Assembly (NCBI GenBank): GCA_964035015.1
Contig: OZ036015.1
Span: 1,579,501 to 1,643,500, forward strand
Origin: Corallium rubrum
Lineage: Eukaryota; Cnidaria; Anthozoa; Scleralcyonacea; Coralliidae
Reading direction: 5' to 3'
DNA: 64,000 bases
The notes below the pieces were generated by a model. The model was not told where the DNA came from. It saw only the letters and a list, made by a program, of their open reading frames with translations, and ran no database searches. Shown here piece after piece: positions 4,137 through 61,015 of this stretch (its first letter is position 1; every line of letters begins with the position of its first letter). The position numbers and the translations under genes were made by a program.

Positions 4137-4391
4137 CTCAATCCACCACCATATTCCACACCTTTTCCTTAACCTTTTTCTGATGATTTAAATAGTAATT
4201 TATAACCTGTTTCTTTGCCTATTTGCAGGTAGCTGACCCACAAATTGGGTCAGCACCTGCACACAGCCTAAAATTACATATTAATTTATTTGTTTACTTT
4301 GTTTTTATTGGCTTACATGTGTTCACGTGATTCCTATTGTAGCTCTGCTATAAATACGCGAGACCACATGTGAGTTGTTTACTAATTTCTC

Positions 4392-4425
4392 CTGACGAAG
4401 GGCCTTCGCTCGAAACGTCGAGAAG
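4392..4425 (+). ncRNA. Hammerhead-like core 3' of PLE fragment
   Basis: CTGACGA (4392-4398), a GGGC/GCTC stem II with a CTTC loop, then GAAA (4412-4415) match the hammerhead core order CUGANGA, stem II, GAAA. It sits about 260 bases downstream of the PLE stop. A clean stem I/stem III with a cleavage triplet was not resolved, so activity is doubtful. Confidence 0.5.
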
Positions 4426-4666
4426 ATTTTTCTCTGTTTTTCAGGCCAACGTGACTTAATCTATGGGTATCAGCCTATTATAATCTGGAGTCAAAACTAT
4501 TGTGTGGTGGGTGAGCTACGTGGTCGACGTTTTCTCGCTTCTTCTCCTCGACTAAAAACACTTCCACTTGTTTATGAAATATTATACAGGATAAAGGCCC
4601 CAAGCAAGATATCTTATCCAACAAAATGGTGATGGTAAATGGACAGCCATGATGTACTGTGATCAA

Positions 4667-7600
4667 TCACTCTCGATGAATAAGCACGAAAATCCCAAGA
4701 GCTGCCAGAACAAAGTACTAGAAAAGATTTAAAAGGAGTTTAAACTTCCTTTCTTGCAGCCACCTTGAAAGAAGGCATGAGTAGGACAAGCTGTTTGATT
4801 TAAAGTGTATATGAAACGAAAATTAAGTTTGTCTTATTTGAAAGAACTCTTAAAATAATGGGGGATATCAATTTACAGCTTTTTCATATTTTACTTAGTT
4901 CTTGAGATATTTAGACTTATGTGATATTCAGATGAGAAAACTTATGGTTCGTTTTTTTCTAATTAACATATTCGAAAATCGTGAATATTTTTAAGATTAT
5001 TGATCAAAATCACTTGTAACTTGTCTTGCATGTTTAGTTGCATGAACTGTAGCAATATGCAAAGTTTCAAGTGATTTTGTTCAATAATCTTAAATATATT
5101 CGCGATTTTCGAATATGTTAATTAGTGAAAAAACGAACCATAAGTTATCTCATTTGAATATCACATAAGTCTAAATATATCAAGAACTAAATAAACTATG
5201 AAAAAGCTGTAAATTGATATTCCCCATTATTTTAGGAATTCTTCCAAATAAGACAAACTTAATTTTCGTTTCATATACACTTTAATAACTTTATTGCCTA
5301 AAGCAACTGGTGCCTGGTGGTCAGACATGGTGAAATGCCTCAATTGAACATGACTACCATGAAGAAAAGTGTTGATTTTACGGAGGGAGGAAAACCGGAG
5401 AAGTTGGCAAAAAAACCTTCGAAGCACAGGAGAGATCAACTACAACTCTACTCACATGAGTTCCAAGTTCAACAACAGGGTCATTCCCAAGCGGTCACCT
5501 ATCCAAGTACGAACCTTGTCTAACTGGGCTTAACTTTTGATGAGCACACACCACCCATTAGCGTGCTGTCTCTCACCGCTGAAGTTAAGCCAGGTTGAAT
5601 GGGGTTAGTACTTGGATGGGTAACCTACATCAGCATAAGCTGTAAGTGCGCTCCCTCTCACGACTGAACTTAAGCCAGGTTGAATGGGGTTAGTACTTGG
5701 ATGGGTGACCTACATTAGCACAAGCTGTTAGCGCACTGTCTCTCATTGCTGAAGTTAAGCCAGTTTGAATGGGGTTAGTATTTGGATGGGTGACCAACAT
5801 TAACACAAGCTGTTAGCGCACTGTCTCTCACTGCTGAAGTTAAGCCAGGTTGAATGAGGTTAGTACTTGGATGAGTGACGTACATTAGCACAAGCTGTTA
5901 GCTAACTGTCTCTCACCGCTGACGTTAAGCCAAGTTGAATGGGGTTAGTACTTGGATGAGTGACCTACATTAGCACAAGCTGTTGGCGCACTGTCTCTCA
6001 CTGCAGAAGTTAAGCCAGATTGAATGGGGTTAGTATTTGGATGGGTGACCTACATTAGCACAAGCTGTTAGCACACTGCCTCTCACCGCTGAAGTTAAGC
6101 CAGATTGAATGGGGTTAGTACTTGGATGGGTGATCTACATTAGCACAAGCTGTTAGTGTACTGTCTCTCACCGCTGAAGTTAAGCCAGGTTGAATGGGGT
6201 TAGTACTTGGATGGGTGACCTACATTAGCACAAGCTGTTAGTGTGATGTCTCTCACTGCTGAAGTTAAGCCAGGTTGAATGGGGTTAGTACTTGGATGGG
6301 CGACCTACATTAACACAAGCTGTTAGCGCACTGTCTCTCACTGCTGAAGTTAAGCCAGGTTGAATGGGGTTAGTACTTGGATGGGTGACCTACATTAACA
6401 CTAGCTGTTAGTGCACTGTCTCTCACCGCTGAAGTTAAGCCAGATTGAATGGGGTTAGTACTTGGATGGGTGACCTACATTAGCACAAGCTGTTAGTGTA
6501 CTGTCTATCACCGCTGAAGTTAAGCCAGGTTGAATGGGGTTAGTACTTGGATGGGCGACCTACAACTACATTAACACAAGCTGTTAGCGCACTGTCTCTC
6601 ACTGCTGAAGTTAAGCCAGGTCGAATGGGGTTAGTACTTGGATGAGTGACCTACATTAGCACAAGCTATTAGCGCACTGTCTTTCACTGCTGAAGTTAAG
6701 CCAGGTTGAATGAGGTTAGTACTTGGATGGGTGACCTACATTACCACAAACTGTTAGTGCACTGCCTCTCACCACTGAAGTTAAGCCAGGTTGAATGGGG
6801 TTAGTACTTGGATGGGTGACCTACATTAGCACAAACTGTTAGTGTGATGTCTCTCACCGCTGAAGTTAAGCCAGGTTGAATGAGGTTAATACTTGGATGG
6901 GTGACCTACATTAGCACAAGCTGTTAGCGCACTGTCTCTCACTGCTGAAGTTAAGTCAGGTCGAATGAGGTTAGTACTTGGATGAGTGACCTACATTAGC
7001 ACAAGCTGTTAGTGCACTGCCTTTCACCGCTGAAGTTGAGCCAGGTTGAATGGGGTTAGTACTTGGATGGGTGACCTACATTAACACAAACTGTTAGCGC
7101 ACTGTCTCGCACCGCTGAAGTTAAGCCAGGTTGAATGGGGTTAGTACTTGGACGAGTGACCTACATTAACACAAGCTGTTAGTGTACTATCTCTCACTGC
7201 TGAAGTTAAGCCAGGTTGAATGGAGTTAGTACTTGGATGGGTGACCTACATTGGCACAAGCTGTTAGCTCACTCTCTCGCTGCTGAAGTTAAGCCAGGTT
7301 GAATGGGGTTAGTACTTGGATGGGTGACCTACATTGGCACAAGCTGTTAGCTCACTCTCTCGCTGCTGAAGTTAAACCAGGTTGAATGGGGTTAGTACTT
7401 GGATGAGTGACCTACATTGGCACAAGCTGTTAGCTCACTCTCTCGCTGCTGAAGTTAAACCAGGTTGAATGGGGTTAGTACTTGGATGAGTGACCTACAT
7501 TGGCACAAGCTGTTAGCTCACTCTCTCGCTGCTGAAGTTAAACCAGGTTGAATGGGGTTAGTACTTGGATGGGTGACCACCTTAGCTTCATGTGAGTAGG

Positions 7601-10600
7601 GTTGTTGGTTCTCTCCTGTGCTTCGAGGGTTTTTCACCAGGTTCTCCAGTTTTCCTCCCTCCACAAAATCAACACCATAGTTTCCTCAGTTAATTCTACG
7701 AACTCATTCCATCAAGGAGTGCGGGCCATTGGAAATACCGTCAAATAAAGAACAATTTAAGCTTTTTTTTTTAAAAATATCTTTACCTTAAATTGAGGAT
7801 AGTCATTCATAACAATAGTTACCATTCCTACGTAAGGTAAAAATCTAGGAAGAAAAAATCAAATGACTTCAATTTAGTCATCAGTTAATCACTATTACTA
7901 CCATTTGCGCTCAAGCGGTTATCGAATAACTAGAAGTAATATTGGGCATTTCACTCGATTACATAGCATGTTCTAGGGATTTACGGTGAAGGAAAATTCG
8001 AGTGTAGAATATATACATTATAAGACCAAACCGGGACCAGTTGCGAAAAATGCGACTACACAGGCCTTCCGGCAGGAATTGAACCCACGACCTTGCGATT
8101 CTAGTGCAATGCTCTGCCCACTGAGCCACGGAGGCCGTTGCCGAGAGCTTGATCGCGAATTCTGTATATATTAAGGTGGTAATGCCAGGAGAGAATTGGT
8201 CGTGGGTTCAATTCCTGCCGGAAGGCCTGTGTAGTTGCATTTTTCGCAACTGGTCCCGGTTTGGTCTTATAATGTATATATTCTACACTCGAATTTATCT
8301 ATCGAATAACTAGTTGTTTTCGAGTTTTGAAACAAACGTTGTTCAATGACAACTACACGTTTGACAGATCAAATCAATAACGAATACGGAGTGTAACTTT
8401 TCGTTGTCAATACTTGTCATCGTTCTTTTCACACGGCAGCGTTTGCTTGGAATAACTTGTCTTTGGCTTAATTGTGAGAATCGGAATGATCAGTGAATGC
8501 AGATTGTCTGATAAGGGTAGTTCACTTTGATATGACCTGCCCAACGCATTTATTTTGTATTCCATGTTTGCCGTGGCCTATGAAAAAACGTTGAAACTTG
8601 AAATGGAAGTAATAACAATGGAAAGTTACACCGGTACACCCCCTATTCGTTATTGATTTGATCTGTCAAACGTATAGTTGTCATTGGACAACTTTTGTTT
8701 CAAAACTCGAAGACAACTACAGTCGAACCCCTCTTAACGGACACCCCTATTAAGCAGACACCCCTATTAAGCGGACACCTATGAAAGGTCCCGGCCATTT
8801 CTTTAATAAAACCCTATAGTTACACCCCTATTAAGCAGACAACCCCTATTAAGCGGAAGCGGACACCTATCTTGGGTCCCAATGAACAGAATAATCTCTA
8901 TTAAGCGGACACATGGAGTTCAAGGTTAATGTTTTCCTTTGACAATAACATTCAACACTTAAGATTTTACAAGACATACCGACATTAGGCGATCGACATG
9001 CATGTAATGAAGAGCGTTCCAGTGCTCTTTTGAACGTTAACGACATTTTAAGAGACTTGTGGCTACGCGAACCTCGAAAGCAAACACTTACAGATTCTTT
9101 GATTATTTAATAATTTAACTTATCTAATGTATTTCAAAATTTTCAGTTTGGTTAATGTTTTGTTATATTTTGAACTATTAAAGAAATATGTTGGACTTAT
9201 TTTAAGTCAAATAGTGCTGTATTAATTGTTTTACAGTAAAACCAAACAAAGTCTATAATAAAACCTGGTAACCCCCTGCGCACCCCCTACTGTGCCAACC
9301 CCATTAAGCGGAGACCTGACGGGGTCCCAAAGGTGTCCGCTTAATAGGGGTTCGACTGTAGTTATTTGCTAAACGCTTGAACGCAAATGGTAGTAGGACA
9401 GTATAAGTAATTCAGCAAAAGTCTGACTCATGTAAAAACATATCCCAGGTTTTCAGTGAGCTTGTGCAAAATATACAGTACACCATTCTGGCAAGTTCCT
9501 TGGGCACCTTTGGACAGTAAATGGTGCCAGTGGTACTTACCAGGATGGTGTAGAATACATGTATACATGTATGTCAGTGATAGTGGCCTTATAAGGATGG
9601 TACAGAATGGTGTCAGTGATGGTGGCAATTGAGATGTGCAAGGTAACCTTGTGCAAGGGCACAAACCTGAAAGGTACTGTACCAAAGCAAGTCAAACTTT
9701 TCGTGAATTACTTACTGTATTCCGTAACCATGACAATCACAACATGAACCATATTTATAGAATTTTAAATTACATTTTATAGTACTGTATTGCACTGCGC
9801 TGCACTGTACTGCACTGTACTGCGCTGCACTGTACTGCACTGCAATGTACTGCACTGCACTGCAATGTACTGTACTGTAATGTAATGTACTGTACTGCTC
9901 TGTACTGTACTGCACTGTACTGTACTGTACTGTACTGTACTGTACTGTACTGTACTGTACTGTACTGTACTGTACTGTACTGTACTGTACTGTACTGTAC
10001 TGTACTGTAATGCACTGCACTGTACTGTACTGTACTGTACTGTACTGTACTGTAATGCACTGCACTGTACTGTACTGTAATGCACTGCACTGTACTGCAC
10101 TGCACTGTACAGTCTGTGCTGCGCTGTACTGCACTGCACTGTGCTGGACTGCACTGCACTGCACTGTACTGCACTGTGCTGTACTGCACTGTGCTGTAAT
10201 GCACTGTGCTGTACTGCACCGTACTGTGTTGTACTGCACCGCACTGTGTTGTACTGCACTACACTGTACTCTACTGTACTCTAACTGTACTACACTGTAC
10301 TTTACAGTTATATTTATAAAATACTAGTCTAAACAAAAGGCAGAAACTAACCCTCTAGCTCGACCAACAACATCCTTTTTCTGTAACCAAAGTTGACCAG
10401 GAGCATAAAGGCCTCGATCATCAACTGAATTATTATCACCTTTAGTTAAGAATATCACACTACCATTCTCCCTGAATGACAAAAACAAAAACGTGTTTAG
10501 TATACATGTGTAAAAAATCTCGCAAGTTGTTACACCATTGTCGCCTGAACAAATATGCTGTAACAACTTGTTGACATATGTGAACAACATTGATGAATGA

Positions 10601-13600
10601 ACAACATTGTTCATCATTGTTTCAACAAGTTGTTACAGCTTGATGAAACAACAACCGTTGTTCACGCATGTTGTAACAACCGAAGAACGTGTTGATACAT
10701 CAACCATGTTCACCATTGTTGTAACATTGTTGTTCATCGTTGTTATTTTGTCATGCTATTACAACATGTTGTATCATGTGCGAACAACGTTGTTGGCTAT
10801 AAAAATGTACTGTTGGAACAACTTGTTCATGACTGTTGATTTATCTGTGAACAAGTTGTTCGAACCATAAGTGAACAACTTGTTGACAACTTGTTCACGG
10901 CGAGCAGCACAACATTGTTCACAACGAGCAGCACAACTTTGTTCACGCCTGTTGACAACCGTGAACAAGTTGCGCGTTTTTACATGTATAGGTAATAGCA
11001 TGGTTTCAAGTGCAATTTGGAAAAAACATGCACAAGTGAGTTTTTCATTGACTATCAAAATTGCACGAGTCCGAAGGACGAGTGCTATTTGAGGTCTTTG
11101 AAAAACGCACGAGTGCGTGTTTTTTCCAAATCGCACAAGAAATCATCTATTACTTATTAATAATATACATGAAAACATTTATCATAAAGAGAATCTTTCT
11201 AATCAAAATGCTTTGTTCAAATAACATACATAAAAAAAAATTAACAGGAAGAGCTTTTTTTCTAGTAAAAAATGATTTTTGTGCAAATTAAAAAAATTAC
11301 AAAATTTACACTGTATTTCATTTTCTGCACTGAATTACACTAAAATTGCACTCCTCTCAGCCAATCAGAATTGAGAAATATTTTGATGTATATTATTAGG
11401 CAAAGAACACCATATTTTCTGGACTACAAGTCACACCATTGTATAAACTGCAATGCCAGGTTTTAAAACCGTAAGACAATAAATTTTGAGAAACGTTGTC
11501 ATTGATACTCTAGAAAATATGGTACATGTACATACAGCCCCAAAATAAAATCTTGCTTTATCTTGAATTTGAATAATTTTTCTGCCCTACAGTTTACTGT
11601 CTTTTATTATATAAAATAGTGGTTTATTGGCTTTTCCACAACTAATAAGTATAGGTAATCATATGATAGTGAGTACAATTAAGGATTTACACTACAAGTG
11701 ATATTTGAAAATTTTGCCAAAATTGCACGAGCCATTAGGTGAGTGCAATTTGGCATAATTTTCAAATATCATATGTTAATGTATGAGCAAAATCATATGA
11801 TTACTCATTTATTATATGCATGACAAAATTATGACAAGTACATTTTGTACTCACCGTCACATCTTTAAAAACATCTTGTTTCATTACTTGACAAGAAACA
11901 TTTTCACTCTGGGTGTTCTCCGTACTCATTTCAAAATATTTACATGGAATTTTTAGTTTATAGTGTACCACAAGTCATTGGAAATGTGAAAACTTTCTAT
12001 TGCAGAATTGGCTGGCATTTTGAATTTTACTGTCAACATCGTTCCCAGGGCCTTGGGAGCAGTACAATTAATAAAATAATTGTACTCCTCTCAACCAATC
12101 AGAATGTAGTAATTTTGTCATGCATCTAATAAAATCCATAATCTCACATGTGTCGATTATCACAGGATGCATTAGAGTATGTATGGTTCTACATTTTTGT
12201 GGGTCAATAGGACTATTTTTTTATATTACAGTATAATAATAAACAGAACAATACATCGATGTAATATAAATAAGTTTTGTGGAAACACCATGTAAAATAT
12301 TTATTTGCTAAGCTTTCGGCCTGTTGCCTCAGGCCTTCATCAGAGCAATAACAACAAGCTGTTGGCTCATGTCATTTATAAACTAAGCAACTGATCAGTT
12401 AAATCACATAAGAAGACAATGGTGTATCATGTTAATAGTAAGGCAACAGGCCGAAAGCTTAGCAAATAAATATTTTATGTGGTGTTTCCACAAAACTTAT
12501 TTATATTACATTATCACCATGAAAACTTTCAAAGAATTAATACATGGATGTTTGGAAATATGAAATTCTTTCTCGTGTTGAATAGGATATCTCACTCGCT
12601 GGCTTCACTCATTTATGAGATATTCTGGTCAGCACTTGAAATACCTATTACAGCAGGGCTCTCCGGGAAGAAACAAGAGGAGCCTGACAAAAAGAGCTCA
12701 CCAAAGTGGTAAGGGGCTCCTTTTAGAGCCCCTGGGAATTATACAGAAACTGGGTAGTGGATGGGTCTACTAGCATTATTAATGACATTGAGATTATTTG
12801 AGAACGAGTTAGCACTGCAGTCCTTGCACAGTGGATAGTTTATACTTTATAGAAGAATATAGTAACAGTTTTATTTCAGTAAATAAAATTATGTTAAACA
12901 TTTTAATTTCTAAACAAAAATAACATGAAAATGATGAAAAGTAAATTATCAATATTAAAAAACAGGAAAAAGTTAGAGATGTCCATAGAGTATAGACATA
13001 CTGTACAGTAGTAGTTCAGTGTCAGTGACAATGTGAATTGTGACATAGTGACTAAGAGATGTCTTCTTTCCCCCACGACTTGAAGGTGGATAGTTTAACT
13101 TTGACCCCTTTTGAATTTAATGTCTCCATATATTATTCAATCGACGCCATTTTTAGATTTTGAGATTTTGAGAGCATGGTCACAAACTGTCATGTCAGCA
13201 ATTCTCGTTCTCACGCACGTTTTGGGAATGAGATTGCCAGCGATTAATTAAAGAAAAAGTTTGCAAAATTGATTGATAAAATCCAAACTTCATAGTGTTT
13301 TGTTGTTCACTTCAAGTTCCCACAGTATATTCAATACTACTTGGTAGGGTTTTTTTGTAAGATATTCTATTTAAGGCGCTTGATTTTTCGAGCTCGCCGA
13401 TTTTGATCAACAACCTTAAAAATATTCACGATTTTCGAATATGTTAATTAGAAAAAAACGAACCATAAGTTATCTCATTTGAATATCACATAAGTCTAAA
13501 TATCTCAAGAACTAAGTAAAATATGAAAAAGCTGTAAATTGATATTCCCCATTATTTTAAGAGTTCTTTCAAATAAGACAAAATTAATTTTCGTTTCATA

Positions 13601-14392
13601 TACACTTTAATACAACTTTATTTTATACAGTGAAATAAAAGTAGTGTGCTGCGTAGGCAGTGTTGAAACAACAATCGAAATATAGTAAGGTTAGATATAC
13701 TACCAAAACAGAGAACATGGGAGTCTAACATTTTGAGTGAAGGCCATTCATCAGAGAGAAACATTTCTCTCTGACAAAGGGCCTTCGATCAAAGCATTAG
13801 ACTTTTATTCAAAACAGTACTTACTTTTCATGAAGTTTAATTACTCTATGTACAATTGGTATCTCTCTTCCTTTTATTTTAAAAACAACAATTTCACCAA
13901 CACGGATGGGATCCTCTTTGTAATTGGTAAGAAATAAAAGATCGCCACGTTGAAATGCAGGCTCCATGCTACCACTAGTAATTTCAAGAAGTTTAAAAGT
14001 CATTGTTGAGAATGGCTGAGAGAGAAAGCTTGAGAAATACAAAAGAAAACAAAGGCAGACAAAAGGAAGACCAAGAAAGAAGAAAGCAACATGAGAGCTA
14101 TTGGATGAGAAACTCCCTTTGCAATATCATTTGCTGAATAAGATTCTCCTGTGTGTGTGTCTGAGAATTTTACCTCACAAGGCTATGAGACAAATACCTA
14201 TGCTCCTTTCTTCTTTTCCTGCCTTCCTTCTTCCTTCCCTTCCTCCCTCCCTCCTTCCTTCTTTTCCTTTCTTCCTTTTATTCCTTGCTTGCTTGCTTCT
14301 TCTCCCTGCTTGTCCGCTTCTTTTCCTTCCTTCCTTCCATCTGTCCATCCGTCTGTCCATCCATCCTTCCTTCCTTCTTTTCCTTCCCTCCT

Positions 14393-22100: not shown

Positions 22101-25100
22101 AACCGGGACCAGTTGCGAAAAATGCAACTACACAGGCCTTCCGGCAGGAATTGAACCCAAATTGAATCAAGCTCTCGGCAACGCCCTCCGTGGACTAGAA
22201 TCGCAAGGTCGTGGGTTCAATTCCTGCCGGAAGGCCTGTGTAGTTGCATTTTTTGCAACTGGTCCCGGTTTGGTCTTAAAATGTATATATTCTACACTCG
22301 AATTTTCCTTCATCCAAAATCCTTAATACACGCTATGTAATCGAGTGAAATGCCCAATATTACTTATAATATACCAATTCTCTCCTGGCATTACCACCTT
22401 AATGTATACAGAACTCGCAATCAAGCTCTCGGCAACGCCCTCCGTGGCTCAGTGGTCAGAGCATTGCACTAGAATCGCAAGGTCGTGGGTTCAATTCCAG
22501 TCGGAAGGCCTGTGTAGTTGCATTTTTCGCAACTGGTCCCGGTTTGGTCTTAAAATGTATATATTCTACACTCGAACATTCTTAAAAGAGGCATGTTTGA
22601 TTATAGTTTGCTGGGCAATGATGTTTTTAACCAGACTTCGATTTCCGCCTGGTGCCTCAATTGCATCGATTTTTGCAAATATCATTTTAACTCGGAAAAA
22701 GCTGAATTTGAGCCACTAGTGCCTATTAACTTTGATAAAACATTGATGTTTTATTAATCAATGTTTTATCCGTATTTAAAGATGCTGATTAAACATTCAT
22801 TTCTTTTGAATTTTCGTCATGAATTATTAATGAATTTGATAAGTAATGTTTACAACACGAGCGGCCGTGTTGTATTGAATATACAATCACGAGCCGAAGG
22901 CGAGTGATTGTAGATAGATAGATAGATAGATAGATGGTTTATTTGAAAAAAATACATAGCAGCCAAGGGCTGAATTGCGTATTTCATTAAAATTACATTT
23001 GTTATAATAGATATTCTTATATTAAAATTACAAATTTATATGTAAAATAAATTTACACGAGCTTACATAAAATAGCTATAACAAAATGTCAAGCCTAAAC
23101 TAAAACTAATTCTTAAAACTGGACATTGACTATTTCATGTTAGCATTAAGGCATGAAGACATTATGTAAGTGTTCTTAAAACGGTTAGTCTTCCATCTGG
23201 GAACATTAAATGATCGCGAATGTCTCAAGTTGTGCTTAGTCTCATAAGACGGCGGTAATAATTGATGTATATTCAATACAACAAGGACGCGAGTGTGAAA
23301 TGAATAAATAGTAAAAATCCCTTTGGGATATTGAGATGCTAATTAGTTACAAGCACTAGTGCATGGTTGTATCAGAAGAGTATACATCCACTAGTGGTTG
23401 TAACTAATTAGCATCATTGGTTTTAGTTTGTATGGGGTTTACAGGGGTATACATGTGATGTAATTTCTGAAATTGGATTGACTGCAAAACTCATGAATTA
23501 GTAATGAATTTCACAAGTAATAAAACAAACAAGAGTTTGAGTGTTTCATCAGGGGTCCCAAACACGAGAAAAGAAATGAAAACCGAGGGTGTAGCCGCCA
23601 GCTTTTTATTGTTTTCGAATGTTTGGAGTCCCCTGATGAAACACGATAAACGAGTGTTTGATCTTGCTTCTCAAACGAGTATTCGCATTGCGATTTGCGG
23701 TGTTTTCTTCATTGATTTCAATATGCAGATTAAGAAATGTCATCCAGTTCACTAGGAAGTTTCCTACAGGTTTTCATTGGGTATCAAAACTCATGCATGT
23801 GATGTGGTATACGTTTATGGATTGGCCACGATAATTCATGAATTATTAATGAATTTGAGAAATATTATATCCCAAACTCATTAATAATTCATGAGGAAAA
23901 CACAAAGGAAATCAGTACCGTGTCTGCGGTTTGGATATCGGAGGAAGAAATTACACAAATTAAGCAAACTTTTACCTTGACGTACTGTATAATAAACGAG
24001 CAGGAGTGTTTTATCAGATATAAAGACACGAGGCGAAGCCGAGTGTTTTTATATCTGATAAAACACGAACTGCGAGTTTATTATACGGCTTCAAAAACGA
24101 ACCACTTGGTAAGTTGATTGGCGGAGTTAGTTTGAAAAATAACCTTGTCTGTGCCGAGAAAATCAAAGCTAAAGTTTATGTAAATCAGGAGAAATCTTTA
24201 TCACATATAAAGATACGATACGGTCATGATTTTCTTTTGTGTTTTCCTCATGAATTATTAATGAGTTTTTGAATTTCTCTTAAAATACTGATTTGTTTGA
24301 GATGCTATATCATACACTCGGAGGAGTGTCTCATCAGGATATCCAAACACCTCGAAGTTTGTTCGGTTTTCAACAAACGTCTCGGTGTTTGGATATCCTG
24401 ATGAAACACTCCTCCTCGTTGTTGATATATTACATAAAAACATAAGAGATACTACACACATGCACAGAAGTACGGATAGTTAAAATTAAAGCGAGATGTT
24501 TTTAAAAAAATCCTACGTTTTTAATAGTTATTTTTACTCACCAAAAAGTTGTATTCCAAGAAAATAAACAGCGCTGAGATTATTGCGAGAATAATAAACT
24601 AAAATAGAGACAAACGGTATACTAAGTTGCGTCCATCTTGCTATGATTATTGCTTAGGCTAGTATACATGGCAGTATGAAAAAGTAGAGTGCTGTGTAGG
24701 CAGTGTTTTAGATAGAGCAAAGCGGAAAGATGGTGGACTGCTGAGATTAGTTTTGATAACGAAATACTGACGTTCCAAGCAGAGTCCTTCATCAGAGTAA
24801 AATCTAGAGTGCTGTGTAGGAAGTGTTTTAGATAGAGCAAAGTGAAAAGATGGTAAACTGCTGAGAATAGTTTTGATAACGAAATACTGACGTTTCAAGC
24901 AGAGCTCTTCATCAGAGTAAAAACTAGAGTGCTGTGTAGGCAGTGTTTTAGATAGAGCAAGTGAAAAGATGGTAAACTGATGAGAATAGTTTTGATACAG
25001 AGACCCTCATCAGAGTAAAAAGTAGAGTGCTGTGTAGGCAGTGTTTTAGAAAGAGCAAAGTGAAAAGATGGTAAACTGCTGAGAATAGTTTTGATAACGA

Positions 25101-27033
25101 AATACTGACGTTTCAAGCAGAGCCCTTCTTCAGAGCAAAATGTGATGGCTCGTTGCGACACTGTATAGTGGGTTGCTTTTTTCATTTTGCAATAGACGTT
25201 GAAAAATTGCATTGCAAGTTGCAGAAAAAATTGCGTCGTGTAACAAATACATGGTCTTTTGCGCAAGATCCAAGAAGCAATGAACACTTTCCTTAGGTCT
25301 GGCAACATACAACTTAAACTGAAGAACTCTGATGAAGGTCTGCGCTCGAAGCCTCTCAGCAGTTTACCTTCTTTTCACTTTGCTCTATCTAAAACACTGC
25401 CTACACAGCACTCTACTTTTTACTCTGATGAAGGACTCTGTTTGAAACGTCAGTATTTCGTTATTAAAATTATTCTCAGCAGTTTATCATCTTTTCACTT
25501 TGCTCTATCTAAAACACTGCCTACACAGCACTCTACTTTTTACTCTGATGAAGAGCTCTGCTTGAAACGTCAGTATTTCGTTATTAAAACTATTCTCAGC
25601 AGTTTACCATCTTTTCACTTTGCTCTATCTAAAACACTGCCTACACAGCACTCTACTTTTTACTCTGATGAAGGGCTGTGCTTGAAATGTCAGTATTTCA
25701 TTATAAGAACTATTCTCAGCAGTTTACCATCTTTTCACTTTGCTCTATGTAAAACAATGCCTCCACAACACTCTACTTTTACTCCGATGAAGGGCTCTGC
25801 TTGAAACGTCAGTATTTCGTTATTAAATATATTCTCAGCAGTTTACCATTTTTCACTTTGCTCTATCTAAAACACTGTTATACAGCACTCTACTTTTTAC
25901 TCTGATGAAGGGCTCTGCTTGAAACGTCAGTATTTTGTGATTAAAACTAATCTCAGCAGTTTACCATCTTTTTATTTTGCTCTATCTAAAACACTGACAA
26001 CACAGCACTCTACTTTTTACTCTGATGAAGAGCTCTGCTTGAAACGTCAGCATTTCGTTATTAAAACTATTCTCAGCAGTTTACCATCTTTTCACTTTGC
26101 TCTATCTAAAACACTGCCTACACAGCACTCTACTTTTTACTCTGATGAAGGGCTGTGCTTGAAATGTCAGTATTTCATTATAAGAACTATTCTCAGCAGT
26201 TTACCATCTTTTCACTTTGCTCTATGTAAAACAATGCCTCCACAACACTCTACTTTTACTCCGATGAAGGGCTCTGCTTGAAACGTCAGTATTTCGTTAT
26301 TAAATATATTCTCAGCAGTTTACCATTTTTCACTTTGCTCTATCTAAAACACTGTTATACAGCACTCTACTTTTTACTCTGACGAAGGGCTCTGCTTGAA
26401 ACGTCAGTATTTTGTGATTAAAACTAATCTCAGCAGTTTACCATCTTTTTATTTTGCTCTATCTAAAACACTGACAACACAGCACTCTACTTTTTACTCT
26501 GATGAAGAGCTCTGCTTGAAACGTCAGTATTTCATTATAAAAACAATTCTCAGCAGTTTACCATCTTTTCACTTTGCTCTATCTAAAACACTGCCTACAC
26601 AACACTCTAGTTTTTACTCTGATGACGGACTCTGCTTGAAACGCCAGTATTTCGTTATAAAAACTATTCTCAGCAGTTTACCATCTTTTCACTTTGCTCT
26701 ATCTAAAACACTGGCTACACAGCACTCTATCTTTAAGACATTTACGACGAGCAGTTATTTGCTATTTATTATAATACTTACAGGAATTCCCGCCCAGTAA
26801 TGAACCTGATCTTGACGGTACATTGTCTCTTGGTGATCACCTAGTTCGGAATTATCATGTTCAAATATCGTTCCACATATCAGAAAAAGCAATCCAAAGA
26901 GAAAGAAAATGGCTGCATAATACTTCAACGATGTTTTGTGCTCCAATAACAAATTCATAATGTTGTAGCGTCCAGTGGGAAATTTCAAGAAATTCAAAAG
27001 TAGCGAAGGCTGAAACTTTACTATAGTACTCAA
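19187..27033 (-). CDS. Four-transmembrane protein with proline-rich tail, family unrecognised
   Basis: Minus-strand exons: 26782-27033, 24542-24598, 21537-21839 and 19187-20095. Junctions are GT/AG and phase 0, giving 506 residues if the first Met is used (a later Met at residue 26 is possible). Hydrophobic segments lie at about residues 39-57 (AAIFFLFGLLFLICGTIF), 83-103, 104-124 and 170-195. A long Tyr/Asp-rich loop lies between TM3 and TM4 (YQTKSNHYYSSGDVDY). The ~310-residue tail has Cys pairs (CKGCQ, CQECD), a basic PRRRDPH patch and many PxxP and DPQLxP repeats, suggesting a cytosolic SH3/WW-binding scaffold. The layout recalls MS4A or TMEM255 proteins, but I saw no diagnostic motif. 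Intron 1 is largely the hammerhead-like satellite, and intron 3 is a giant pentamer array. The gene model is strong; the function is unknown. Confidence 0.85.
20125..21430. repeat. 1.3-kb pentanucleotide array (ACAAC)n/(GCAAC)n
   Basis: Nearly continuous pentamers with discrete variant blocks: ACAAC (20210-20450), CCAAC (about 20463-20515), ACAAC again, a 10-mer GCAGC-ACAAC block (20780-20975) and a CGCAA run (21140-21400). All six frames are open in places, purely as an artefact. It lies in intron 3 of the four-TM gene and ends about 100 bp from exon 3. Confidence 0.97.
21935..22575. mobile_element. tRNA-derived SINE-like palindrome, copy 2
   Basis: The unit of 7941-8296 appears here in alternating orientation three times. 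The part at 22440-22505 keeps GGCTCAGTGGTCAGAGC and GGTCGTGGGTTCAATTCC, tRNA-like A and B boxes with a 4-bp anticodon-type stem. The acceptor stem is not paired, so it is SINE rather than a tRNA gene. Confidence 0.75.
22840..23300. mobile_element. Inverted-repeat element hosting a (GATA)n-tailed insertion
   Basis: TTGTATTGAATATACAATCA at the left matches the inverse ATTGATGTATATTCAATACA near 23260. Between them, minus-strand sequence ending AAATAAACCATC-(TATC)n at 22912-22935 looks like a non-LTR retrotransposon 3' tail. Confidence 0.55.
23330..24430. repeat. Cluster of separate hairpins
   Basis: There are four fold-backs: 23330-23418 (GATGCTAATTAGTTACAA arms), 23540-23660 (GTTTCATCAGGGGTCC / GGAGTCCCCTGATGAAAC), 24005-24070 (TTTTATCAGATATAAAGACA) and 24312-24420 (CATCAGGATATCCAAACACC). 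The last three share a GAGTGTTTNATCAG design, so they are relatives. All lie in intron 2 of the four-TM gene. Confidence 0.7.
24542..24598 (-). CDS. Exon 2 of the four-TM gene (TM2)
   Basis: A 57-bp exon between TTTTAG and GTGAGT encodes FIILAIISALFIFLEYNFL, the second membrane segment. It is listed separately because it is too short for usual ORF calling. Confidence 0.85.
24667..26735. ncRNA. Head-to-head array of ~120-bp hammerhead-like units
   Basis: About 12 plus-strand units start at CTGATGA positions 25328, 25425, 25545, 25665, 25784 (CCGATGA), 25902, 26022, 26142, 26261 (CCGATGA), 26379 (CTGACGA), 26499 and 26619. Four minus-strand units have cores at 24773-24795, 24893-24915, 25007 (deleted) and 25111-25133. 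Each good unit shows CUGAUGA, a short stem II, GAAA, stem III (CG/CG around UCAGUAUUU) and NUH. UUUUACU before the core pairs with AUUAAAA after the cleavage site at 6 of 7 positions (stem I). About 180 bp of non-repeat separates the two arms. The array nearly fills intron 1 of the four-TM gene. The hammerhead assignment is by motif only. Confidence 0.75.
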
Positions 27034-28560: not shown

Positions 28561-28944
28561 AGTAGATTTTACGCCATCTGCGTGTCGGGTAAAAACAACA
28601 GTCACGCCAATCTCGTACCCAGGGCCATTTGTAGGGACCTGGGCCAAGATGGCGAATAAAAACAATATGGCGGGAACAAATCGCCCTGGTGGAGGCTAGC
28701 TAAAATACGCAGTATATTGCGCATTTTTTTAATCAGAACTCAGTCATTTAAGGGTGGCTCCCTATAGTTTAAATAAATGCGCGCTATTTCGTTATTTAAT
28801 GTTATTCATAAGATTTCAGCGATGGAAGTACCAGGCGGAAAACGTAGGGTGATAAATATTATTGCCCAGCAGATAACTTTTAAAAACACCATATCGAATA
28901 GGAATACATTGAGAAGATTGAAATACTTTAATAAAAAACTAACG

Positions 28945-28973
28945 TTTCGTCACTACACGAGTAACATCATCAG
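28945..28973 (-). ncRNA. Hammerhead-like core 3' of PLE endonuclease
   Basis: The minus strand reads CTGATGA, then TGTTACTCGTGTAGTGAC with a 6-bp stem II (GUUACU/AGUGAC, one U-G pair), then GAAACGTTAG. It lies about 110 bases after the PLE stop, in the same orientation. Stem III has decayed. Confidence 0.55.
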
Positions 28974-29079
28974 AGTGATATAGATTTACATAAATTCTCG
29001 GCTTAAATAACCTAGGCAATTACAAAAATAGAAATGAGGAAATAGAGAAAGGTGATAGGTGTAGCGTCGTGTCAGGAGA

Positions 29080-29577
29080 TCAAAACAACGCTAACGGAAA
29101 GGAACTGATGTTGGCATTAAGTGAAGGATTTGTTTTAGATATTAATAAACTCTCTTTAAGGAGGACCTCGAACTGCGAGTTACCGGTGGAGAGAATGGAA
29201 AAATCTTCAAAGGAAATCGGATGTCCGGTTTTTTTCGTATGTGTTAAGACACTAGATGATTGGGAAGGAAAAGGAATCTCATTACCTGTGTAGGCCGAAA
29301 TGCCCATATGCTCGCAGACCCTGGTGTGTAAATGACGGCATGTTTTACCGATATACAAAGCGGAACAGCTTTGACACGTAAATTTATAAACAACGTTGGA
29401 TCTTAGGCGCATAGGAATCCGGTCTTTAAAGCGAAAGAAACTTGAGATTCGGCAGACTGGTCGAAATACTATTCGAAGGCTAATGTGCGGATATGAAGAT
29501 GACAATAATTTTAAAAGTTGTTGGCGGATTTGTAGGCCATGATTACCAGTGAATGGTAAAACAAGTGAAATCTGCAA
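29080..29577 (-). pseudogene. PLE GIY-YIG endonuclease fragment
   Basis: The frame has a Cys-rich VVYKFTCQSCSALYIGKT segment (CxxC followed by the YIG motif), then HLHTRVCEHMGIS and KTGHPISFEDFSIL, ending LNANISSFPLALF. This is the C-terminal endonuclease domain of Penelope-like elements, which nicks DNA for target-primed reverse transcription. The reverse transcriptase part is missing, so it is a 5'-truncated copy. Confidence 0.85.
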
Positions 29578-30372
29578 GTTATAAGTTTAAAATATTTGTT
29601 ACCTTACTATAGCAGAACTATTGCAGATATAAAATATTTATTAAAAAGTTCAATTATTTGCTGTTACCATAGTAATAATGACGTTGGAATTTTGGCATAT
29701 TTTCAAAGTGGCATCTCTTCCGTTTGCTTCGGTGAATTTTCTTACAAATTGCTGAGATGATAGATATTGTTGTAGAGAATATCCATGCAAAAAATGAAGG
29801 TAGGTTGTAGGGACAGATTTTTCGCTATAAAAATTATCGATTTAAAAAAAGTTCTGTCTTATGAAATTTTTTTAAAAAAATATATACTTTAGAAGTTTTT
29901 ATAAACTACTTATTCACAAAATTTTACCAAAATTCACCGAATAAAACGTCTACAGGTCTAACATCCATGTCGTCGCCGTCATAGAATTTCGAAACGACAA
30001 GATCGCTGTTTACGAATGCGTAAGCGATACTATTTCTAGTCACCAGTCCCCTATTGAAATTACCGTAGGGAGCCACCTTAAACGGTAATTATACCTAATT
30101 ACACCTAATTATTGCATGGTTTAAAATATAATTTCCCGCAACCGTGTGCAAGACCAACCTGACAAGGTCAAAATACTTTTCTTTTTTTTTTAAATATAAA
30201 ATCAAACCATTTGATTTATGCAATAGCTCTTGACCAATCAGGGGCTGAGATAGCCTAGCCTCCACCAGGGCCATTTGTTGCCGCCATTTTGTTTTTATTC
30301 GCCATCTTGGCCCAATCTCGTCCCCAATCTTGGCCCAGTTCCCTACAAATGGCCCTGGGTACGAGGTTGCAC

Positions 30373-32080: not shown

Positions 32081-32289
32081 TGACGTGATCTGACGTGATC
32101 CATGTGTCTGTCCTCTAATACATCATGGGCAACAACCAATGAAAACACGCATAGCAACCAGGGTATTGTACAATACAACACACGCACTCGGCAATATGTA
32201 ATCTACAATACATATATCTTATTAGATGTTTTGGTTTGTAGTATCGCTGTATATGTTTAAGAGTTGTGCCGTATTTTGACGAGCCCGCA

Positions 32290-32715
32290 TTTATTATACA
32301 AGAATCGAAATATGGTATAGTAGGTTAATACTGCCGAAACAGAGAACGTAAGTGGTCTAACGTTTCGAGCGAAGGCCCTTCGTCAGAGAGAAACGTAAAG
32401 AGTGAAACAAACAACGAGCTTATATACGCGAGATAATCACGTGATAAAAATTAGCCAATCAGATAAAGGTAAACCTGGATAAAGGTAAACCTGGATAAAT
32501 CAGATAAAGATAAACCTAATTTTTATCACGTGATTATCTCGCGTATATAAGCTCGTTGTTTGTTTCACTCTTTAGTCGTTTCTCTCTGACGAAGGGCCTT
32601 TCCTCGAAACGTTAGACCACTTACGTTCTCTGTTTCGGCAGTATTAACCTACTATACCATACATATTTCGATTGTTGTTTCAACACTGCCTACGCAGCAC
32701 ACTACTTTTATTTAT
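32290..32715. mobile_element. Inverted pair of PLE terminal repeats
   Basis: Two copies of the AACGTTAGACCACTTACG repeat face each other, with hammerhead-like cores at 32363-32386 (minus) and 32586-32609 (plus). The plus copy ends GTAGTGTGCTGC in complement. Between them lies an inverted AACCTGGATAAA region. Confidence 0.7.
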
Positions 32716-33229
32716 TATACAAGCTCTGATCAACAAATTTTTATGGAAAAAGAAACCTCTAAAAAGGCCAGAGAAGTAGCGTGACTTGCACCAGGACAAA
32801 ATAATAAGCATACATGAAGTAGTTTCCCGTGTGATAAGTTTGATTGGCTAACAATTCAAATAACCAGTGCAAATAACTAACTATCCAAATATCGCTGTAT
32901 ATTTGCACTCATTTTTAGCGTTATTTGGCCGACAGTTTTTAATGCAGTTGTATAACAAAACACGCTATTTTTCAGATATGCCACGATTTAAACTAAATCA
33001 ATGTTAAAACAGTTATACTAATTAAGTTTACAATAAAATATCCGTTCTATTTTTAGACAAGGAAAATCGGGCATCTGCCCGCAGGGTAGCTTTGTTTTTG
33101 CGCCCATGATAATACCTGGCAGCGGTCTTCGTTCGGAGTGGCATTTTGATTGGTTAATAATTTTGGCGCGAAAACCCGAGCCCTCTTTGTCTTGATTTTC
33201 AAGATTTTTCTTCGTGGCACACTTCACCT
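32716..33229. other. Gene-free intergenic segment
   Basis: No gene, array or palindrome was recognised. Confidence 0.4.
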
Positions 33230-37900: not shown

Positions 37901-40459
37901 GATTTACATTGTAAATGAGATACAGAATTTACAGATTAATTGCTGCTCACACTAATATCTATTTAACATATTATTTATTTTATAATATAATGTACACCAT
38001 ACTTAAGCCCTGTTTATCTCCAAAACCATACACAATTCCAGGTCTTACAATGACATAATTCAATCTAAAAGAAAATAAATTTGTGTTTTCACAATATTAT
38101 GCGAGTTTTAATTACCACTTTTTCACTTTGCAAAAATTATTTATGGGGTGTTGGTGGCACAGTGGTTAGCGCACGTGCCTTTCACCTCTGTGACCCGGGT
38201 TCAATTCCTGCTCTCAGCAGTTATCTGACTAAAATTTCACCTTGGCCGCATGTGAGAAGAGTGCTTCCAGTTTGACTCTACCAAACATCGCAGGTTTCCT
38301 CCGGGTACTCCGGTTTCCTGCTGTAGAAACACTGGACCAATGAGGGATGGCCCTTACTGGACCTCTGGGGAGAACAGTTAGCTTTTAACTGGTAGAGATA
38401 TCCAGTATAAATAAGATTAGTTTAGTTTAGTATACACCAATACTCATACCCTTCTACTTTTGAAAGTTCTTCTTCAACTTTAAGTTTATATTTCGCCTGC
38501 ATAGTCCATGGAGATAACTTTGAATCTTCTTTGCTTTCTTTCTGCGGGGAAATCAATACATTCAGTGGTGTCACCAGACCTGGGAGAGTGGGGGGGGGGG
38601 GGGACAAAATGATGATGTCATCATTATATGACATCATCGATATATGATGTCATTGGTATATGATGCAGGCCTGCAAATAATTTTTTGACATAGAAGGACA
38701 AATGTCAGCCCAGACCAGAAAGTGGTCGGACATGTAGAAATTCTGGCCGGATGGACTAAGGGTTTCCCTACTTTTTATAAATGCATCCACTTATCATGAT
38801 GGCATACACGAGGAATCAGAATAGATTTTTTATCTCGAAAATTAATGTCAGTAAACTAGTACTACATAATGCATCATGGTCCATTTTAAAAACAATCTAT
38901 AGGAATAAGGATTGACACAAAAATGAACTATCTCTTATTGTAATTATTGATCAGCTCAAACAGACAGAATTTCCTTAATTCCTTTCTGTATACCTTTTAC
39001 TAGCGAGTACTAAATGGACAAAACATCTTAAAGACAATAACTATTAACTCGGTAAGCTTGAATTGACCGGTCAAAATAACCGGCCATGAGGTTTGGGTGG
39101 ACAATAATGCGCAATCATGCTGGACAATGTCCGATGACCGGCTGTTATTTGCAGGCCTGATGATGTCATAATTGTTGGTACTTCCTGTTAATTCTATATA
39201 ATAGTTTTTATATATTAGATAATTGTGATTTTAAAATAATTTATATGATCGTTTCGGGTGCATTAACCTTAACCCCGAAACATTCGTAAACTTAACCCAA
39301 ATTGTTGTGTGGACCCAACGTTTCTCTCTGACGAAGGGCCTTCGCTCGAAACGTTAGACCACTTACGTTCTCTGTTTCGGCAGTATTAATCTACTATACC
39401 ATATTTCGATTGTTGTTTCAACACTGCCTACGCAGCACACTACTTTTATTACATAGTAGGAATGCTCTAGGGGGTGCAGGGGCAAAATGCCATTTCCTAC
39501 ATTCTGAGATGAGATTTTTAACATTCTGAGGGGTGATTTTTAAATTCTTGTACAGTTTTTGAAAAAACTCTCAGATTGTAGTACATAGTTTATATTTTTG
39601 GGTACCTAGTTTGGACGCCCAAACCGGTGTACCAGCGTGTCAAACTGCCTGGATACAGCCCTGAGTGAACTAATGCAAAAAAAGATAAGAAAAACACATT
39701 CACACACTTGTAAACTATTTGTCCAGCTAGTGGTCAGTGAGCTGAGCACTTGGAATCACTACATACACCCCCCCCCCCCCAACATTTCTCACCGGATTTG
39801 GAAGAATCTCGAATTGGTCTTGAAGAGAACTGGGGGACATGTCCCCCCTCGGTCCCCCCCCTAGCGATGCCACTGAATACATTTGAGAATAAACATGAGT
39901 GTTTCTACAGTTACTCTAGGGTTAGAGGGTCTTCAGGTGGCACAGTGGTCACCTCTGTGACCTGGGTTAATTCCTGCTCTCAGAAGTCATCTGATTGAAA
40001 ACTTCATCTTGGTCACATGTGAGAAGAGTATTCCTGTTTGACTCTACCAAACACCACAGGTTTCCTTTGGGTACTTCAGTTGCCTGCTATAGTAACACTG
40101 GATTAATGAGGGATGGCCCTTAATGGACCTCGAGGGATAACACTTTATAGATATGACTGATAGAGTTATCCAGTTAGTATAATAGTTAATAAAAGTAGTG
40201 TGCTGCGTAGGCAGTGTTGAAACAACAATCGAAATATAGTAAGGTTAGATAAACTGCCAATTAAAACAGAGAACGTAGGAGTCTAACGTTTCGAGCGAAG
40301 GCCCTTCGTCAGAGAGAAACGTGATGGTAGTTACATGTAGTTTAGTTTTCTTCTGTAGTAACACTGGATCAATAAGGGAGCAGTTTAGAAATGACTGATA
40401 GAGTTATCCAGTAGTTATAGTTTAGTTTTAGATATTAAGATTAATACAAAATAATTATA

Positions 40460-47766: not shown

Positions 47767-48395
47767 TTAAGTGCCTATATCACTTGTGGGGTTTTAACTT
47801 ATTTAAAATACAGCAGAAAAAATCGGTTAATAAGTTATTTTGCCGTTTTTGATTTAGTGAAATAGTTCCTGACATATTGGCTTCTGAACATGCCAATTCT
47901 CAAAAATTTCCGTCGTTCATTTTAACAACAATCGAAATATGGTATAGTAGGTTAATACTGCCGAAACAGAGAACGTGAGTGGTCTAACGTTTCGAGCGAA
48001 GGCCCTTCGTCAGAGAGAAACGTTTCTCTCTGACGAAGGGCCTTCGCTCGAAACGTTAGACCACTTACGTTCTCTGTTTCGGCAGTATTAACCTACTATA
48101 CCATATTTCGATTGTTGTTTCAACACTGCCTACGCAGCACACTACTTTTATTACACTATTTGGTTCATTTTAACACCTTGGGGGCCTGGGACTCAGGAAC
48201 GAGTCAATCCAAAACAACTACGTTTCGGCTTATTGAGTCACAAAAACACATATGTTTGACTGAAAAATGTCGAGCTTACACCCGTTTTCTCAGAAACTAT
48301 TAAAGTAAATCAAAAACGGCAAAATAACTTATTAAGTAACTTTTTTTGCTCTATTCAAATACGTTAAAACCCCACAAGTGATATAAGCACTTTAA
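47767..48395. mobile_element. TTAA-flanked MITE carrying an inverted PLE repeat pair
   Basis: The ends TTAAGTGCCTATATCACTTG and CAAGTGATATAAGCACTTTAA (last 20) are inverted with TTAA borders. Sub-terminal AATAAGTTATTTTGCCG is inverted. The inserted pair (47926-48165) has back-to-back cores at 47990-48013 (minus) and 48030-48053 (plus), separated by only 16 bases. Confidence 0.8.
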
Positions 48396-51594: not shown

Positions 51595-52067
51595 CTACCT
51601 CATGTATTTATACTGTATATATATAGGGCGGCGGACGTTCCTAGCAGAAAATTTATTTTCATGCCGGCATTTTGAAATTAGCTCCGATCGTTTGTTGAGC
51701 AAGTTCGCCTTGTTAGCTTTCAGAATAACTAGCTTTTCTTCCAAGCACAGATTACAGCGCCTTGCTCCACTTGTGTAAGGGGCGGCGCGTTTTACAATAG
51801 ACCAATTTACGTGGAATGGTTTCCCTTTGATTTTAAGTCCCAAACGTACTTTGATAGTTCAGTTTCGTTCTTGTATTTCTCGTCATGGAAAGATTTCTGG
51901 TGGTTGTTGAAGCGTTGCTTGAAGTTGTTGGCTGTCATTCCTATGTATTGTTTTGTTGTGTCTGTTTCATCGGTTGTTGTCGTGACATCAGCTTTGTAGA
52001 TGACTCCTGCAACCATGCAGTTTCCTTTCAAGGGGCAATCGGTTTTATTTCTGCAGCTGCAAGTTTG

Positions 52068-52070
<3 letters not shown>
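51595..52070 (-). pseudogene. PLE GIY-YIG endonuclease fragment, frameshifted
   Basis: The upstream frame has CSCRNKTDCPLKGNCM, AGVIYKADVTTTT, KQYIGMTANNFKQRFNNH and TELSKYVWDLKSKG. The next frame continues KPFHVNWSIVKRAAPYTSG, RRCNLCLEEKLVIL and NKRSELISKCRH. The change of frame is near 51830. These are the Cys-rich linker, GIY-YIG core and CxxC tail of a Penelope-like endonuclease. A long in-frame Asn run (AAC codons) lies immediately upstream. Confidence 0.88.
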
Positions 52071-59657: not shown

Positions 59658-59807
59658 AATACTTTTATGGTGTACTTTCTTCTTTTAATTTATATGACTT
59701 TTGTAAATATTTTATTTATAGGTTGGTAAAAATCTCTAGGTCACTCAATTAGAGCCCTGAGATTATTTTTTGTTAAAATTTGTTAAATCAAAACAATTAA
59801 ACACTCA

Positions 59808-60804: not shown

Positions 60805-61015
60805 AAAAAAGCAGTTGAAATATAGTAAGGTTAGATATACTGCCGAAACAGAGAACGTAGGAGTCTAACGTTTCGAGCGAAGGCCCTTCGTCAGAGAGAA
60901 ACGTGAAGGGCCTTCGCTCGAAACGTTAGACTCCTACGTTCTCTGTTTCGGCAGTATATCTAACCTTACTATATTTCTGTTTCTACACTGCCTACTCAGC
61001 ACAATACTTTTATTG
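60805..61015. mobile_element. Inverted PLE terminal repeat pair
   Basis: The minus core is intact at 60871-60894. The plus copy lost CTGACGA but keeps GGGCCTTCGCTCGAAACG. The outer ends read AATATAGTAAGGTTAGATAT in both orientations. Confidence 0.7.

Follow-up and report, generated by a model that had tools for sequence, protein, structure and literature searches.

A tandem repeat with a period of 120 bp lies in a 64,000-nucleotide stretch of the Corallium rubrum genome (contig OZ036015.1, positions 1,579,501 to 1,643,500, forward strand; this whole stretch is the window, and positions are numbered within it). The array probably represents one insertion of a non-autonomous, leader-only Penelope-like element (PLE), which occurs genome-wide and has been multiplied in tandem; the PLE machinery most likely mobilised it. 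Tandem Repeats Finder (TRF) and repeat searches resolve the array, with a GC content of 37%, into two opposed arms in head-to-head arrangement. On the plus-type arm, TRF finds 11.6 copies (25354-26734) and an additional higher-order period of 477 bp. The array sits within intron 1 (24599-26781) of a minus-strand gene. Because the host gene is on the minus strand, the four minus-type units are sense to it and the plus-type units antisense, and the CUGANGA..GAAA core is intact in two of the four sense units. An earlier note on this DNA had described a ~120-bp head-to-head intronic array of about 12 plus and 4 minus units, and TRF, the repeat search and the exon structure agree with that description. 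Open frames inside the array are mere translations of the 120-bp unit, without reverse transcriptase (RT) or GIY-YIG endonuclease, so the element is not autonomous.

The units carry the fold of the minimal type I hammerhead of PLEs. The motif runs in the order CUGANGA, one extra nucleotide, stem II, GAAA, ACGU (AGCU at 12343) and H17. The stem I strands are the bases immediately 5' of CUGA and those immediately 3' of H17, UACU/AGUA in the array. The palindromic ACGU replaces stem III, and the predicted cut falls after GUC (ACGUC); in this minimal fold, two motifs would have to share the ACGU helix. The extra nucleotide of the array core is located between A9 and stem II, and brings to mind a variant reportedly found in a viroid.

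We searched both window strands with a descriptor of the PLE-type layout, which gives 17 distinct sites, 7 of them within the array, whereas 24 Mb of Markov sequence contains no match; this result is flattered, because the descriptor was composed once the motif was known. A pattern scan for CUGANGA...GAAACGU or near forms locates motifs outside the array at 4392, 12343(-), 28973(-), 32386(-)/32586, 39328, 40312(-), 48013(-)/48030 and 60894(-). We also built a covariance model from an alignment of 10 leader-type hammerheads of the genome, with the array left out. In the window, the model matches 30 places at E ≤ 1, including its 4 window training rows. Within the array it recovers 11 plus and 3 minus motifs (Table 1), and two relics, at 24983 (minus) and 25329 (plus), reach E 0.74-0.76, which bears out the hammerhead-like cores that the earlier note had seen in 12 plus and 4 minus units.

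The 10-leader alignment itself shows the fold. Its six pairs are formed in 88.3% of cells against 63.6% after shuffling, and covariation is 0.674 against 0.209; none of 500 shuffles reaches either value, several of the rows being close relatives whose kinship the shuffles leave uncorrected. Slid structures pair in at most 42%. Less clear are the pairs changed on both sides (4, equalled by 71 of 500 shuffles) and the further pair types (7, equalled by 239 of 500). In stem I, the own partner fits 36 of 40 cells and a foreign one 181 of 360 (0 of 20,000 permutations), with strands typed by hand, some rows related, and a 3-bp monomeric stem III in place of ACGU in rows L069, L073 and L078. Judged from these sequence comparisons, the ribozyme core of the array units is real and belongs to the minimal PLE-type class.

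Rfam had been suggested as a check on the hammerheads. In the array, it finds none at the gathering score or at E ≤ 10, so no unit matches, which is one half of what the earlier note had set as a refutation. Yet 8 PLE loci known to contain hammerheads are missed by Rfam as well at E ≤ 1, and the negative therefore says little. At the gathering score, the whole window yields two tRNAs alone; at lax thresholds, the array and the PLE loci give unrelated names, all below their cut-offs.

The earlier note had drawn a monomeric fold. We compared this fold with 248 distinct full-length units, taken from the genome loci of the unit and core searches and from the window, a sample biased towards intact cores. 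Its stem III stands in 89-100% of units and 242 of them have U as H17, whereas its stem I does not hold (pair 2 unpaired in 99%, pair 3 in 62%). The 6 of 7 stem I pairs claimed for unit 25545 are correct by inspection. As a fold for the family, the monomeric layout gives no window match and one match in the null sequence when at least 4 contiguous stem I pairs are demanded. The cleavage site placed between CGUU and AUU is wrong or unsupported as well: in the fold with the better support, cleavage would follow ACGUC, 5' of that site. The favoured unit 26022 fails the strict PLE-type descriptor, its third stem I pair missing. We considered and rejected a covariation in the monomeric stem III (ACG/CGU to AUG/CAU, units 25665 and 26142): these units are related via the 477-bp period, and two CpG decays fit as well. 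The note's hint at PLEs proved apt, as both the hammerhead type and the tail described below indicate.

The unit belongs to a large family. Across 474 Mb in 312 contigs, to which all genome-wide counts refer, the unit core pattern has 1,254 exact matches and its reversed control none; part of these matches are short relatives, such as L039-L042 with 67 bp matching. The unit search gives at least 211 matches, 40 of 1,311 candidates having been scored. Counted over all families, motifs of the GAAACGUH type occur 15,265 times, compared with 159 for the reversed control. In viral contigs, neither the core of the array nor that of the dispersed leaders has an exact match.

To describe insert ends, we number the unit from the A of ACUCUGAUGA (phase 1), so that the predicted cut follows phase 31 and phase 120 is the end of CUACUUUUU. 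The survey covers 63 stretches: the window, 42 of 60 searched loci (the other 18 overlapped, ran off ends or were short) and 20 hand-picked core-match stretches. We merged segments separated by no more than 60 bp into one element and joined the two arms in the window by hand; 10 groups below 100 bp were discarded, in no case because of a position at a stretch edge. Among the 64 elements, 33 are head-to-head, 31 one-armed and none tail-to-tail. The 97 outer ends concentrate at two points ~35 bp apart, 35 of them at the tail end (phases 116-120 or 1; P 4e-21 against uniform) and 29 at phases 81-91 (P 7e-9). Inner, or 5', ends fall at the upstream edge of the ribozyme in 59 of 97 cases (phases 109-120 or 1-10); near the predicted cut (phases 28-36) there are 4, where ~7 would be expected if ends were uniform.

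The outer ends of the 33 head-to-head elements combine as long/short in 14 (long for the tail end, short for phases 81-91), short/other in 8, long/other in 5, other/other in 4, short/short in 1 and long/long in 1, the window element. Without L045, which forms with L043 a pair of loci resembling a segmental duplicate, the counts are 34, 28 and 33 (outside both clusters) of 95 outer ends, with 13 long/short elements. Flanking direct repeats of at least 8 bp occur at 8 of 64 elements, against 0.82% of mismatched flanks (P 6e-8). Target duplications are thus enriched, at 8-12 bp (12 bp at L063, 11 bp at L105); this test supersedes an earlier one on coarse ends, with repeats of at least 8 bp in 6 of 41 elements against 15 of 400 random pairs. 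We also considered a DNA transposon with CAGTG...CACTG termini, but two-valued, one-sided ends do not suit it, and the idea was dropped.

These ends resemble those of PLEs. According to excerpts of PMC3846280, PLE pseudo-long terminal repeats (pLTRs) contain a TATA-initiator (TATA-Inr), the inverted pLTR is 37 bp shorter, a 31-bp tail is optional on one side, and inserts show 8-10 bp duplications and head-to-head palindromes. According to excerpts of PMC11167929, PLE reverse transcription has an internal start, at either of two neighbouring sites between which the 30-40 bp tail lies, and extends both target strands; in vitro it begins near the start of the open reading frame (ORF), the hammerhead cuts only with protein present, and the hammerhead is not needed by the PLE. 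As far as these excerpts go, our two end classes match the optional tail and the two RT start sites, and we read the family as leader-only PLEs. The one-sided tail of 30-40 bp is present in 14 of the 33 head-to-head elements, and the window element itself is long/long.

We next turn to the ORF-bearing PLEs of the same genome. The satellite tail and the dispersed-leader tail are identical at 24 of 27 positions, and the hammerhead is common to satellite and PLE leader at 22 of 27. The pattern of tail plus extension has 92 exact genome copies. In two of six fetched copies, L086 (C1:3107444) and L090, the tail continues into the same PLE frame (TLPTQHTTF...), which makes it part of the PLE coding sequence, close to where the ORF begins. 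After an interruption, L086 shows YFLPKIHK...MDVKSLYTVIPH, which we take to be PLE RT motifs. About 1.5 kb downstream, L092 has a frame of GIY-YIG-like sequence (44% in a 32-aa match with the window frame at 29080, E 2e-7), followed by the same hammerhead and the same end. For the L086/L092 frames, Pfam at E ≤ 10 gives RVT_1 (0.12) and GIY-YIG (0.24), both below cut-offs, and one unrelated name; PDB sequences give no match to them. In a relative at C20:3164996, the frame stays open for 764 aa. We read 12 N-terminal regions. Hammerhead, tail and PLE N-terminus follow in order in L093, L096, L099, L101 and L104; L094 and L095 have tail and N-terminus without a strict hammerhead, and L102 and L103 a hammerhead with a different tail. 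L097, L098 and L100 show nothing of this order, with a degenerate satellite copy near L100.

The PLE ends of two further families, named here after the window frames at 51807 (11 stretches) and 29080 (6), have hammerheads of other kinds and lack this tail; the exception is L077, with satellite-like and leader copies downstream of the PLE end. In L084, of the 29080 family, the hammerhead is broken. Long PLEs repeat the satellite architecture at larger scale, with an inverted lead copy and tandem copies. On C15 (11892123-11918353), a minus copy at 11892123 precedes ten plus copies from 11893401 to 11917964, spaced 2,729-2,730 bp apart, of which seven lie in 860-aa frames and one in a frame of 853 aa. 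On C43, seven minus copies follow one another at ~3,112 bp, accompanied by a single plus copy. We also notice many short matches to the PLE tail and N-terminus at C192:24474-74043, perhaps a second leader-derived array.

On this basis, we propose how the inserts could form. The leader would consist of an RNA start site, the minimal type I hammerhead, a spacer of ~64 nt and an RT start site (the 'tail' CACTGCCTACACAGCACTCTACTTTTT). Most likely, the target would be nicked in trans by a PLE protein, and reverse transcription would begin at either of two points ~35 nt apart in the CACTGCCTAC tail. Copying back to the leader 5' end, from both target strands, would leave a head-to-head insert. Tandem units may arise when the polymerase leaves the 5' end and jumps onto another tail, for which a seven-base overlap between the tail end CTACTTTTT and the leader start ACTTTTTACT would help; unequal exchange would later enlarge some arrays, here with the 477-bp period. 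The ribozyme cut would be dispensable for explaining the inserts: they extend past it to the leader start, which argues that the templates were mostly uncut there. We see an even chance that the family is in this sense a satellite born from RNA, a ~120-nt PLE parasite made of start site, ribozyme and RT start that grows by polymerase jumps from 5' end to tail. If so, many of the minimal hammerheads dispersed in animal genomes would be leader-only PLE inserts, produced by the same internal start at the RT site's 5' copy.

Several points weigh against a leader-only PLE. The satellite middle agrees with the PLE leader at 39 of 78 positions, with a shuffle mean of 0.48; being no closer than shuffled sequence, it leaves the PLE link to rest on hammerhead and tail. 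This middle occurs in none of the 12 N-terminal regions, among which we found no autonomous PLE carrying it, and 8 further genome places match the satellite-type tail with PLE extension by pattern. The L086 frame is interrupted after 356 open aa, Pfam gives nothing at E ≤ 0.1 on the L086/L092 frames, and for the copy at C1:3107444 the RT and GIY-YIG identities, below the Pfam cut-offs, are putative and lean on motifs. In the end survey, 33 of 97 outer ends lie outside both clusters and 38 of 97 5' ends outside the upstream-edge cluster, and 56 of 64 elements, the window array included, have no flanking repeat of at least 8 bp. Selecting loci by a match to the unit or its conserved core may have favoured certain ends, and any array that extended beyond its locus was excluded. 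The seven-base overlap is partly circular, because inside arrays the bases 5' of a unit are the previous tail, and template jumping and unequal crossing-over are not distinguished.

We then asked in what state the ribozyme is. CUGANGA..GAAA at the expected distance is retained by 191 of the 248 units, core, H17 and palindrome by 178, and these together with a 4-bp stem I and at least 3 bp of stem II by 105. Mean identity is 0.976 in the core and 0.961 in the rest of the unit (p 0.07). Stem II pair 3 is broken in 30%, with A.C in 74 of 248 units. Imposing the minimal fold on two-unit array transcripts costs 6.1-10.5 kcal/mol above the best fold, against 1.1 for the leader at 12343, 4.1 at 4392, 4.8 at 28973 and 8.4 at 48020; these figures cover neither stem III nor tertiary contacts. 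With core conservation not significant, stem II often broken and the fold costly, the array gives no sign of selection for cleavage. Minimal PLE hammerheads are proposed to work as dimers (Cervera and de la Pena 2014, Luense 2017, as cited in PMC7761336 and PMC7229834). We suggest that the array ribozyme is an inherited leader module which at best would cleave weakly and as a dimer, perhaps with help from PLE protein.

A metazoan retrozyme is an unlikely source of the array. Its transcripts would cut themselves, the ~120-nt monomers would be circularised by tRNA ligase, and the circles would template new tandem inserts. A coral, a mussel and the axolotl are reported to have tandem type I hammerhead repeats that give circles of ~170-400 nt (PMC7229834, in part), 105 of 248 units keep all the elements just listed, and the monomeric stem III is mostly intact. 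The insert ends speak otherwise: copying round a circle gives no fixed 5' end, whereas ours gather at the ribozyme's upstream edge and not at the cut (4 of 97). The motif is of the minimal PLE kind, the unit is shorter than those reported, and core, stem II and fold cost are as given above. The candidate circular-RNA-producing system of the earlier note thus lacks support, with four sense units (two intact), a core not significantly conserved, inserts not starting at the cut and a costly fold; a ~120-nt circular RNA from the array is at best a candidate product.

Slightly less probable again is an ordinary satellite, in which a landed PLE leader was amplified and spread by DNA recombination or copying alone and the ribozyme is a fossil. 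The 477-bp period, the core without excess conservation and the L043/L045 pair fit this account; many separate insertions with preferred ends and enriched target duplications do not, nor does the finding that 33 of 64 elements are head-to-head and none tail-to-tail. That the hammerhead resemblance arose by chance within an A+T-rich repeat, to which the silence of Rfam and the weak fold would be congenial, is highly improbable, given a descriptor without matches in 24 Mb of null sequence, a model trained without the array that still matches its units, and covariation across leader families.

The leader-only PLE can be placed among known systems. As excerpted in PMC3846280 and PMC11167929, endonuclease-containing PLEs and their pLTRs share with it a leader with a TATA-Inr-like promoter, hammerhead, RT start and ~35-bp tail, the head-to-head layout, target duplications and tandem copies; the satellite differs in being a leader only, without an RT/endonuclease frame, as a 120-bp repeat in which each unit has a single ribozyme. 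The minimal hammerheads of PLEs share CUGANGA, stem II, GAAA, no real stem III and a short stem I, but in the satellite the motif sits in a regular repeat and stem II is often broken; the extra nucleotide between A9 and stem II may be a further difference. The available part of PMC7229834 describes metazoan non-LTR retrozymes as low-GC tandem repeats with a type I hammerhead per unit, like the array; their ribozymes are canonical and their units ~170-400 nt, whereas the satellite has a minimal ribozyme, 120 bp and PLE-like ends. In Adineta vaga, solo pLTRs and pLTR-flanked inserts are PLE terminal sequences moved without an ORF; in PMC3846280, as excerpted, they are not described as a tandem satellite, and the word 'hammerhead' is absent from its main text. 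In open-licence full-text literature, by titles and abstract openings, we found no tandem, leader-only or hammerhead-bearing non-autonomous PLE satellite, the PLE-hammerhead papers of 2014 and 2017 lying outside this scope. The family links tandem hammerhead repeats to PLE-like insertion ends, in many copies and with an ORF-bearing relative in the same genome, and yields testable predictions on RT start points, the RNA 5' end and the relevance of ribozyme cleavage.

Table 1. Positions of the array, its hammerheads, the host exons and other PLE-related features in the window
Feature	Position	Strand	Details
Left arm	24679..25143	-	4 minus-type 120-bp units, one ~98 bp; ends: outer, phase 120, with the full tail; inner, phase 114
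Head-to-head junction spacer	25144..25326	.	no other window match at E ≤ 1e-4 (query 25140-25360); end 25326 set by eye, helped by a weak model match at 25329-25355
Right arm	25327..26734	+	~12 plus-type units, first carrying a deletion; outer end at phase 118
11 minimal hammerheads	25417..26653	+	covariance model, E 1.9e-8 to 1.3e-4
Starts of the plus motifs	25417, 25537, 25657, 25776, 25894, 26014, 26134, 26253, 26371, 26491, 26611	+	covariance model
3 minimal hammerheads	24761-24803, 24881-24923, 25099-25141	-	covariance model, E 1.5e-6 to 2.2e-5
Tail example CACTGCCTACACAGCACTCTACTTTT	25395..25420	+	array unit
Host gene exon 1	26782-26958	-	contains ATG
Host gene exon 2	24542-24598	-	joins exon 1 in frame; GT donors, AG acceptor
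Dispersed head-to-head PLE leader	32289..32723	+	two hammerheads, complete tail at right end
Dispersed head-to-head PLE leader	47916..48175	+	both arms begin at ACGTTTCTCT
Single PLE leader copy, hammerhead and tail	39319..39447	+	tail and model matches
Single PLE leader copy, hammerhead and tail	40191..40322	-	tail and model matches
Decayed head-to-head PLE leader copy	13637..13806	-	tail and model matches
Head-to-head PLE leader copy	60806..61011	+	plus arm without first part of hammerhead
Hammerhead, 6-bp stem I UUUCUC/GAGAAG	4384..4439	+	as found in leaders of a PLE family whose open frames span 914 aa
3' part of another PLE	28933..29586	-	GIY-YIG-like frame 29080-29586, hammerhead 28933-28981
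Hammerhead variant, AGCU for ACGU, stem I UUGCU/AGCAA	12302..12351	-	descriptor and covariance model

Dispersed leaders of the same kind lie elsewhere in the window (Table 1). Tail matches with at most 3 mismatches number 20, of which 14 are in the array, against a shuffle mean of 0.00. The leader at 32289 is flanked by a 14-bp target duplication, ATTTATTATACAAG (32289 and 32710), and bears TATATAAG at 32544 (plus) and 32426 (minus). The first T of TATATAAG lies 30 bp upstream of the ACGTTTCTCT-type start, a spacing that is exact on the minus arm; the plus arm has two extra bases within the start region. A 12-bp target duplication, TTCATTTTAACA (47916 and 48164), flanks the leader at 47916. 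The copies at 48020-48149, 39319, 40322 and 60904 start at ACGTTTCTCT, ten bases 5' of CUGA, and the copy at 13760 starts at ACATTTCTCT.

The hammerhead variant at 12302 lies within an inverted repeat of ~250 bp (12259-12511) and has the lowest fold cost tested, 1.1 kcal/mol. A GIY-YIG-like frame of another PLE family is found at 51807-52070 (-), with a Pfam E of 1.7e-4, just under the cut-off; its genome relatives carry the hammerhead GUUGC-CUGAAGA...GAAACUCGGAGUA-GCAAC 3' of the ORF, and Rfam is silent in the 4 that were scanned. At 57844-59658 (+) there is a 604-aa reverse transcriptase frame (RVT_1, E 2e-9), which we presume to be LINE-like. The two near-alike tRNA matches of Rfam, at 22438-22509 (+) and 8064-8135 (-), score 42.9 and 41 bits and are perhaps a tRNA-derived short element. 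Another tandem array, of 24 copies of 85 bp, occupies 5558-7586; its unit includes a stretch that we take to resemble part of 5S rRNA, Rfam being silent there at the gathering score.

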